Source: Rubellicoccus peritrichatus (lineage in GTDB: Bacteria; Verrucomicrobiota; Verrucomicrobiia; Opitutales; Cerasicoccaceae). Taken from it: a DNA stretch of 64,000 nucleotides. The notes beneath the pieces are model-generated. The model saw only the letters and a list, made by a program, of their open reading frames with translations, searched no databases and was not told the origin of the DNA. Where the stretch lies: assembly GCF_033100135.1 (NCBI RefSeq), contig NZ_CP136920.1:186001-250000 (forward strand), in the 5' to 3' direction. The translations under genes and the position numbers were made by a program. How positions within the stretch are numbered: position 1 is the stretch's first letter; every line of letters begins with the position of its first letter. This document shows, piece after piece, positions 13,350 to 38,584 of the stretch.

Positions 13350-13911
13350 ATTTGTGGGTATATTTGCTTGAGGTGGAATATTCGTGTTAGATTTGTTGAA
13401 AGTTTAACTTTTATAAAATTAATATCAACGTTTTCGGTTAATCTTAAAGTTTAGATGTATAAGCTGTAATTCGGCTCAGTTATGCGGATATTTCTTATAT
13501 CGAGATCGAGATTTGAACAAAGGCACTTACACGTGTCAAGTCATTTATGGTAAGCAACTGTCGTGTTTTGGTAATTTGTTAAAATTAAGGTATTTAAACG
13601 GTTAAGAACGAAGCAAAACTAGATTTACTATTTATAGAATGCTTTTGATCCATAAAGGATGTCAAAGACATTAAACACATAAAACTAGGGGTTACGGTCA
13701 ATATTGAGGGATATGGGCTGATAGCCACAGGATTTACAATAGAAGCTCAAAACCATAAAACAGCTTATACACGTGTCAAGCCTATTAAGAAGCAAGCCGC
13801 ATTAACACAGGAACAATGTATCACTGGTTAAAATTCAAAAAAACGCGCTTCAGCACTCCCAAAAACACAAATTAGCAGAAAAAGCTCATTTCAAGCCCAG
13901 GAAGACTCTCT
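13350..13911. other. 562-bp gene-free stretch with repeated CACGTG sites
   Basis: A+T-rich and without a convincing gene. The sequence ACACGTGTCAAG occurs twice in the same orientation, at 13529-13540 and 13769-13780, each preceded by CTTA or CTTATA. The shared 12-mer has the palindrome ACACGTGT at its core, as in an operator. It probably holds the promoter of the minus-strand PEP-CTERM gene. Confidence 0.4.
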
Positions 13912-36341: not shown

Positions 36342-37469
36342 ATTCTAATTCATCGCTACATTTTCCGTCAGGTTTTACTCGCGACAGTCATCGCGGTGGG
36401 CTTGTTCGTCTTCGTATTGGTCGCAGGCAACGCAATACGCGAGGTTCTCGGATTGCTGGCTTCCGGCCGCCTGACCTGGGCAGACTTTGGCTACTTTCTG
36501 GCCATCCTGATTCCAGGCGTTGTTCCTTATGCGCTGCCGCTTGGATTGCTTTTTGCTACATTGCTGGTTCTTGGCCGGCTTTCCGCCCAAAGTGAAATCC
36601 TGGCGATGAAAGCCGCAGGCCTAAGCCTCTGGCGCATTGCCGCCCCCATATTACTCATTGCAATCCTCGGGACGGGCCTGGCACTCATTATTGGCTTCTA
36701 CTATGCTCCATTGGCTGATTCGACTTATAAAAAGAAGCTGACCAATATTGTCCGAAATGATCCGCTACGCTTTATCCAGCAAAGAACTTTCATTAAGGAC
36801 TTTCCCGGCTTTGTGATCTACGTCGACAGTCGATCTGGCAATGAGCTCAGGGACTTTTACATTTGGGAGCTCACAGAAGACGGTAAAGTCCACATTTTTG
36901 TTCAAGGTGCACGAGGCAATATCAACTACTCAGAAGAGGATGATGCCATCATCCTGACCATTATTGAAGGCACTGGCGAACAACGCAAAGCCGATGATGC
37001 AGAGAATCTCCAGGATACAATTCCTGTGGTTAGCTATGAGAATGCATCCGTCAGTTTATCTTTAGACCGCATACTGGGGAGTGAAGAGCAAAACCAAAAA
37101 CTTTCACTCATGACACTCGATGAGCTGCTAGACAAGCGACGTTTGGCGATCCAAGCGCCATCATCAGACGAAAGCCTCACAGAGCAAATGAATGTTCAAG
37201 TTGCGATTCAAAAGAAAGTCGCATTCTCGTTTTCAGTCCTGTCGCTCTGTATTTTTGCCATCCCTCTTGGGATCAAGGCCAGTCGTTCGGAGACTTACGC
37301 AAATCTGGGCATAGCTCTCGCCCTGGCTCTCGTCTATTTCATGCTGACGATTATGATTTCCTGGACAGAGAAAACGCCGTCAGTGCGACCTGACTTGCTT
37401 CTGTGGATACCAAATTTCATTTTCCAGGCCTTTGGTTTTTATATGCTTTATCGGGCAAATAAGCACTAG
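36342..37469 (+). CDS. LptF/LptG-family permease of lipopolysaccharide export
   Basis: An inner membrane protein of the YjgP/YjgQ family, the transmembrane part of the LPS-extracting ABC transporter. Six helices are expected: about three near the N-terminus, with a periplasmic beta-jellyroll domain in the middle, and three at the C-terminus (about 280-370). The first GTG is at 36396, but the conserved opening of the family (here LIHRYIFRQVLLATV) lies upstream in the same frame, which runs back to a stop at 36327 without ATG, GTG or TTG. I therefore place the start at an ATT (36342), which is tentative. The stop codon abuts a MITE-like element. Confidence 0.75.
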   Translation: MLIHRYIFRQVLLATVIAVGLFVFVLVAGNAIREVLGLLASGRLTWADFGYFLAILIPGVVPYALPLGLLFATLLVLGRLSAQSEILAMKAAGLSLWRIAAPILLIAILGTGLALIIGFYYAPLADSTYKKKLTNIVRNDPLRFIQQRTFIKDFPGFVIYVDSRSGNELRDFYIWELTEDGKVHIFVQGARGNINYSEEDDAIILTIIEGTGEQRKADDAENLQDTIPVVSYENASVSLSLDRILGSEEQNQKLSLMTLDELLDKRRLAIQAPSSDESLTEQMNVQVAIQKKVAFSFSVLSLCIFAIPLGIKASRSETYANLGIALALALVYFMLTIMISWTEKTPSVRPDLLLWIPNFIFQAFGFYMLYRANKH

Positions 37470-37631
37470 GCTGTGTTTTCAAATTAGTTCATGTCGAAAT
37501 CCTCGCCGCTTTTTAGCTTAAAATCCATGTCCTCTCCTCGACAAATCTTGGCTTGCCTCGGTTCGAAGCCTGTATTTTGGGGCGAAAAATCAGCTTCGGC
37601 TTCTCGTTCCATAATTTGAAAACACAGCCTA
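37467..37631. mobile_element. MITE-like element with perfect terminal inverted repeats
   Basis: The first 20 bases, TAGGCTGTGTTTTCAAATTA at 37467-37486, are the exact reverse complement of the last 20 at 37612-37631. Interior sequence continues as an imperfect palindrome, so the whole element can fold on itself. There is no coding capacity. The outermost TA on each side is probably the duplicated target, leaving an element of about 161 bp. It sits precisely at the stop codon of the lptF-like gene, 11 bases before the next start codon; removing it would still leave a TAG stop. A transposase to move it is not in the window. Confidence 0.8.
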
Positions 37632-37642
37632 GGCCATAAGCA

Positions 37643-38584
37643 ATGACTCAAGCACAGCGCCAGGCCCTGGCAAAGCGTATGGGCGAGGAAAACCTCAAGA
37701 AACGCCTAAAGCGTCAGCAATTGCATGAGGCTGGCGAGGCCTGGCAAGGACGGGGCTTATTTCGCTTTGAACATCTCATCCCAACACGCGCCACCATTCT
37801 TGCTTTAACTAAGGTAACAGGCCTGTATGCTCGAGGTCATCGCAACTATCTCGACATTCAGGTCGTCGAGAACGAGATCCACCTGGCAGAGTTGCCCAAG
37901 GCGTTCGACGGTATGCGCATTCTGCAAATCGCCGATCTTCACACCGATTTGGACCCTGCCTTGCCCGATGCATTAATACCCCTCATCCAAGAGCTCAACT
38001 ATGACATCTGCATCAACACCGGAGACTTTCGCAATCGTACCAAAGACAGCCATAGCGCTTCGATGGAAGCAACAGCCAGGATCTATGATCACATTCACAG
38101 TCCTTGCTATGGCATATTCGGGAATCACGATTTTGCGGAAAAAATCGAAGATCTGGAAAATATGGGCATTCAGCTTCTATTAAATGAGAGCATCCCAATC
38201 AGCAAAAACAGCGAACAAATATGGCTCAGCGGAATCGACGATCCCCATTTTTACCAGTCACACGACATAAAGCGTGCTCGACAAAGCATCCCCAATGATG
38301 CTTTCGCCATCATGCTTTCCCACTCTCCGGATACTTATCCGGAAGTGGAAGCCGCTGGTTACCAGTTTATGCTAAGTGGTCATACTCACGGCGGTCAAAT
38401 ATGCCTGCCAGGGGGACACGCCCTCTCGGGACATGTCAAGGCTCCTCGACAGATGTGGCGTGGGGCCTGGCAATATAAAACGCTCAAAGGATACACTTCG
38501 CCAGGAACAGGTTCTGGCACAGTTCCACTTCGCTACAACTGCCCACCGGAATTAACCATCCACATCCTCAGAAAAATGATGTAA
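37643..38584 (+). CDS. calcineurin-like metallophosphoesterase
   Basis: A 313-residue protein with the full set of metallophosphoesterase motifs: QIADLHTD (motif I), NTGDFRNR (II), GNHDF (III), LSHSPD (IV) and SGHTHGGQ (V), over about residues 90-290. The C-terminal layout is that of YkuE/YpbG-type enzymes, which act on UDP-diacylglucosamine-like or other phosphoester substrates. The first 80 residues are basic and helical with no signal peptide. In the uninterrupted state it would follow the lptF-like gene by about 10 bases, so a link to lipid or LPS metabolism is conceivable. Confidence 0.88.
   Translation: MTQAQRQALAKRMGEENLKKRLKRQQLHEAGEAWQGRGLFRFEHLIPTRATILALTKVTGLYARGHRNYLDIQVVENEIHLAELPKAFDGMRILQIADLHTDLDPALPDALIPLIQELNYDICINTGDFRNRTKDSHSASMEATARIYDHIHSPCYGIFGNHDFAEKIEDLENMGIQLLLNESIPISKNSEQIWLSGIDDPHFYQSHDIKRARQSIPNDAFAIMLSHSPDTYPEVEAAGYQFMLSGHTHGGQICLPGGHALSGHVKAPRQMWRGAWQYKTLKGYTSPGTGSGTVPLRYNCPPELTIHILRKMM

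Follow-up and report, generated by a model that had tools for sequence, protein, structure and literature searches.

The window (the whole 64,000-nucleotide stretch that was analysed, spanning bases 186001-250000 of a genome of 5.8 Mb in one contig) contains an LptF/LptG-family permease gene and, downstream of it, a calcineurin-like phosphoesterase gene; a short element lies between the two, and its left end overlaps the stop codon of the permease gene (Table 1). Between positions 37300 and 37800 there is a single inverted repeat with 21-nt arms (37466-37486 and 37612-37632) that are 100% complementary and spaced 125 nt apart. Without the TA duplication, the element is 161 bp long (37469-37629) and has perfect inverted ends of 18 bp, or of 21 bp if TA and the outer C/G are counted. 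The perfect complementarity of the arms confirms the exact inverted ends that a first-pass annotation of this DNA had reported; of the 20-bp terminal repeats that it proposed, the perfection holds and the length does not, being 18 bp once TA is counted as target.

Table 1. Features of the lptF-like/phosphoesterase locus (positions in the window)
Feature	Position	Strand	Evidence
LptF/LptG-family permease gene; TAG stop at 37467-37469 overlaps left end of element	36396..37469	+	PF03739, E 4e-59
Left TA of target duplication, bases 1-2 of the lptF-like TAG stop	37467..37468	.	TA on both sides in 44/52 copies
Left terminal inverted repeat GGCTGTGTTTTCAAATTA	37469..37486	+	
Interior; imperfectly palindromic, central dyad CTCGACAAATCTTGGCTTGCCTCGG conserved	37487..37611	.	
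Right terminal inverted repeat, reverse-complementary to the left one without mismatch	37612..37629	-	
Right TA of target duplication	37630..37631	.	
Calcineurin-like phosphoesterase gene, downstream	37643..38584	+	PF00149, E 6e-11

Rejoining the flanks at one TA gives ...AAG CAC TAG GCCATAAGCA ATG..., in which the lptF-like gene retains its TAG stop and the phosphoesterase gene starts 10 bases past it. The joined flanks thus bear out two earlier proposals, namely that insertion recreated the TAG stop and that it separated the phosphoesterase gene, which would otherwise begin about 10 bases after that stop. The element folds better than shuffled sequences (RNA z = -4.8 on the + strand and -6.1 on the - strand), as expected from the imperfectly palindromic interior described before, and the low z of the element is in part due to the terminal inverted repeats themselves. 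A coding function was rejected: the window copy has a short open frame that the other copies lack, and no reading frame is conserved between copies, in agreement with the lack of coding capacity noted previously. The element is therefore short, non-coding and bounded by perfect terminal inverted repeats, as are miniature inverted-repeat transposons (MITEs).

Copies of the element

Copy counts rest on searches of the genome. The search of the window's own genome returned 12 matches, of which six are full length (161-165 bp; 100, 95, 82, 80, 75 and 74% identity); further copies are more diverged or consist of the shell only. A covariance model built from 20 copies gave 15 matches in this genome and 33 in G008, a genome from another genus of the same family with the highest copy number, a few entries being the same palindromic copy on the opposite strand. 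The end sequence GGCTGTGTTTTCAAA, allowing up to 2 mismatches, occurred 67 times in the own genome vs 12 times for the reversed control, so that a genome search for the terminal sequence, which had been suggested as a check, does find other copies. Repeated copies at unrelated sites, together with a target duplication, support the earlier description of a MITE-like, mobile element. The further copies also run counter to the refuting condition named in that annotation, which required that no others exist. Recent movement, which had been read from the perfect ends, is weakly supported for the window copy, whose nearest sister copy is 95% identical; truly recent bursts are evident in G008.

The order of the lptF-like and phosphoesterase genes was not conserved in the nine relatives examined. 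One sister copy in G008 lies at the ribD stop, ahead of rdgB, and in three congeners of G008 ribD and rdgB abut without the element, these loci being too diverged for a base-exact empty site.

Several end pairs in the own genome enclose different palindromic interiors of 169-296 bp; therefore, the ends double as a shell for other bodies. The other, longer palindromic interiors (GGTAGCGGCCAGCGTCCCGCTGGCCGCTACC; GGTAGGGCGCAGTCTCCAGACAAG...) are found at genome positions 13457-13629, 471937-472147, 1643253-1643522, 1092997-1093264 and 5280817-5281112, and look like nested independent repeats. Two solitary ends (L043 and L049; 1841117-1841151 and 1157175-1157209) are both cut off at the same point, 35 bases in (...CATGTCGAAATC), as if by a shared breakage or a one-ended event. 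G008 also has internally shortened, 89-bp versions (L084:1379-1467, L161:1514-1602, L177:1511-1599), one of which directly abuts the end of an IS5 copy with TA in common. Because many draft contigs of G008 terminate within an element copy (e.g. C3, C8, C12, C17, C33, C35 and C39), the copy number of the element seems to break the assembly.

Target site and position relative to genes

The 52 distinct copies provide 104 ends; TA is flanked on its outer side by C or T at 100 of them and followed inwards by G at 102. TA is present on both sides in 44 of the 52, which agrees with the earlier reading of the outer TA as a duplicated target, and a 4-bp duplication fits none of the 11 informative copies, i.e. 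those with TA on both sides that can tell 2 from 4 bp. From the outer C/T and the lack of fit to 4 bp, we conclude that the target is YTAR, mostly CTAG, and that the duplication is the 2-bp TA. E. coli IS5 also targets YTAR, mostly CTAG, and duplicates 4 bp (PMC5493358); the copies examined here have this target without the 4-bp YTAR duplication.

About half of the copies lie within a stop codon. With flank pairs rejoined by script and genes called with a simple ORF finder, a TAG stop hosts 25 of 43 non-coding insertions and TAA stops host three more; related copies in this sample are not fully independent of each other. In a background of 400 kb from both genomes, TAG stops make up 20 of the 69 CTAG sites in non-coding DNA and 41 of the 479 YTAR sites, giving an excess among the copies with p values of 0.002 and 4e-14, respectively. 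The stop-codon effect is mostly from the CTAG target itself, and an approximately twofold excess remains. Neighbouring genes are convergent at 28 of 55 copies vs 12 of 66 background CTAG sites and divergent at 3 of 55 vs 19 of 66, and the orientation of the copies is balanced (15 left vs 12 right). Because the element begins with G, an in-frame TAG is rebuilt after insertion. We infer that the stop-codon bias is caused by selection and not by a targeting device; a true targeting bias is a possible cause of the excess.

Conservation of the body across the order

A search of 87 genomes of the order gave matches in ten genomes from five families, mostly full length (163-168 bp). Across the order, the body is constant in its length, in motifs near both ends and in the central dyad; the ends vary widely (e.g. 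TAGGGCGTGTTAACACT in G039 and TAGGGAGTGTGTGTG in G040), and their sequences differ with the IS5 lineage. Changes are paired on both sides of the palindrome at the centre (columns 70-95, 77-88 and 79-86) and at the inner ends (18-148 to 20-146). A contig of Saccharibacillus (Firmicutes) holds one 164-bp copy of the same design (L211:7283-7446; 62.8 bits, E 3e-13), which suggests transfer or a wider spread, and further elements with window-type ends are present in an Opitutaceae MAG. Spread by plasmids or phages was considered and gave no match; matches of viral contigs to the end sequence were single, unpaired and probably due to chance.

The length of 163-168 bp and the central dyad kept across five families, the two-sided changes in the stem and the better folding than shuffles raise the idea of a structured functional element, i.e. 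a two-way terminator or an mRNA 3' stabiliser, that is under selection at gene ends and is also mobile. The bias to 3' ends and convergent genes points in the same direction, and a role at transcript ends has been proposed for ERIC-type repeats (PMC2229807). However, the element contains no terminator-type hairpin followed by a T run, its orientation is unbiased, no known RNA family was matched in Rfam, and target choice together with purging would also give the site bias. We therefore regard such a function as somewhat unlikely; it is compatible with transposition by IS5-family transposases, the explanation that we favour.

Probable transposase partner

In the 5.8-Mb own genome (estimated to be 97.5% complete), there was no match to PF01609, PF13358 or NF033580, and neither an IS5/IS4 nor an IS630 transposase came to light; thus, the active transposase predicted to exist elsewhere in the genome was not found with these models. 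Looking for a transposase with the same ends, as had also been proposed, was successful in relatives, where it is of the IS5 family, and not in the genome itself. An end pair 983 bp long at 5502874-5503856 of the own genome was rejected as an autonomous element, having a poor left end and none of the transposase families searched for.

Ends that match those of the element were found on insertion sequences of the IS5 family (NF033580; PF13340+PF01609) in the same bacterial family. Specifically, contig 16 of G003 carries an 885-bp element with perfect ends TAGGTAGTGTTTTCAAA and an IS5-family transposase inside (NF033580, E 4e-78; Pfam DUF4096 and DDE_Tnp_1), and its left end, which runs on to TTA, equals TAGGCTGTGTTTTCAAATTA of the window copy except for the two bases after GG. 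The match of the best IS5 ends to the window copy is therefore imperfect, the differences being confined to the NN of TAGGNNGTGTTTTCAAATTA. Further NF033580 loci have the ends TAGGTGGTGTCTTCAAATTACGAG and TAGGTTCTGTACGCAAACC (G009), TAGGCAGTTTCTTCAAAATC (G004) and TAGGCCGCGTGGACAAAA (G008), and for each NF033580 end type miniature elements with similar ends are present in the same bacterial family. The ends are thus in common with an autonomous IS5_3 element of the same bacterial family, not of the same genome. Between the ends, no resemblance to the IS5 sequences examined is evident, and therefore the element is not a simple internal deletion of IS5.

The TA duplication and the CTAG preference would also suit a MITE of the IS630/Tc1-mariner type, similar to pneumococcal RUP, which has been attributed to IS630-Spn1 by its ends and TA target (PMC2229807). 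However, a search for PF13358 in the own genome and the 87 genomes of the order did not detect it in the own genome or in G008, which is richest in copies, and 30 IS630 loci from 21 PF13358-bearing genomes of the order lack the GGNNGTGTYTTCAAA-type ends that the IS5_3 loci have. No IS630 transposase with the same ends was found in the genome or its near relatives, and this origin, which is largely refuted, is very improbable. A palindrome that arose by chance or was inherited vertically at the lptF locus is refuted with near certainty by the chance of a 21-nt inverted repeat (~3e-6 per 64 kb), the many copies at unrelated sites and the relatives of G008 with a site that lacks the element.

A miniature element probably moved in trans

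We suggest that the element is probably a copy of a non-autonomous miniature transposon (MITE) that has been moved in trans by IS5-family transposases (NF033580, transpos_IS5_3). From the shared ends, we infer that the IS5 transposase acts on the ends of the element. In this scenario, IS5_3 transposases would recognise GGNNGTGTYTTCAAA-type ends and act in trans on the miniature element, whose insertion point would be the TA within YTAR (in most cases CTAG), with only TA being duplicated. Landing in an in-frame (C)TAG stop would rebuild TAG and would be harmless, and such insertions would hence be kept, while insertions into coding and promoter DNA would be lost; as a consequence, copies would gather at stops and between convergent genes. 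Because no transposase is detectable in the own genome, the window copy is probably stranded now and its mobilisation here historical. With the element, genomes that probably belong to Verrucomicrobiota gain a MITE family that is linked to a specific transposase class. It also shows how mobile DNA that targets YTAR and begins with G can settle in TAG stops cost-free, a simple route into gene-dense genomes.

Variable tips

In 21 near-identical copies of G008 (examples of 163 bp are L160:1503-1665, L174:1572-1734 and L175:1499-1661), the dinucleotide after GG differs in 21 of 84 cells over both ends and end position 11 in 13 of 42, compared with 4 of 588 in the remaining end and 17 of 2709 in the interior. 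A dependence of the variable dinucleotide on the flanking target bases was rejected, there being no association. Chimeric G008 elements join two subfamilies (L163:1458-1621 and L137:1501-1663), and L162:1513-1675 bears the end of another subfamily. Our guess is that the tips are repaired, or exchange template, in the course of transposition, and that this gives rise to their variation. More speculatively, and in our opinion unlikely, the ~161-bp body would be an old independent parasite or module of constant length that exchanges its ends to follow whatever IS5 lineage is at hand, and at each jump the dinucleotide that lies two bases in from the tip would be rewritten. If true, IS5-type transposition would include a step that is so far undescribed, in which the tips undergo end repair or template exchange, and the body would be kept for its palindromic structure. 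The near-identical G008 copies, variable at set end positions, provide material for studying IS5-type end processing.

Comparison with known systems

The element is a genuine MITE copy with IS5-type ends, of a family that is apparently undescribed, being absent from the literature searched, which covered few subscription papers. It resembles RUP of Streptococcus pneumoniae, which is moved by IS630-Spn1, in being non-coding (RUP, ~100 bp), in its TA duplication and in having the ends of a full insertion sequence (PMC2229807); unlike RUP, its partner is of the IS5 family and absent from searches of the host genome, and its 161-bp body is kept across bacterial families. With ERIC/IRU (127 bp) and YPAL/RU-2 (~168 bp) of enterobacteria it shares a near-palindromic body of constant length and intergenic copies, and with ERIC also TA termini (PMC2229807, PMC2759123); compared by description, it differs from them in its long (18 bp) ends that match a known insertion-sequence class and in its occurrence in a different phylum. 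Correia/NEMIS elements of Neisseria likewise have long terminal repeats (24 bp) and a TA duplication (PMC2229807), whereas the element has a conserved central dyad and the 155-bp Correia form has a reported IHF site; an informal comparison noticed no sequence likeness between them. Finally, the element duplicates 2 bp rather than the 4 bp of E. coli IS5 and is without a transposase, yet it shares the YTAR, mostly CTAG, target of that insertion sequence (PMC5493358), and its partner transposases in relatives match the NCBI IS5 models.
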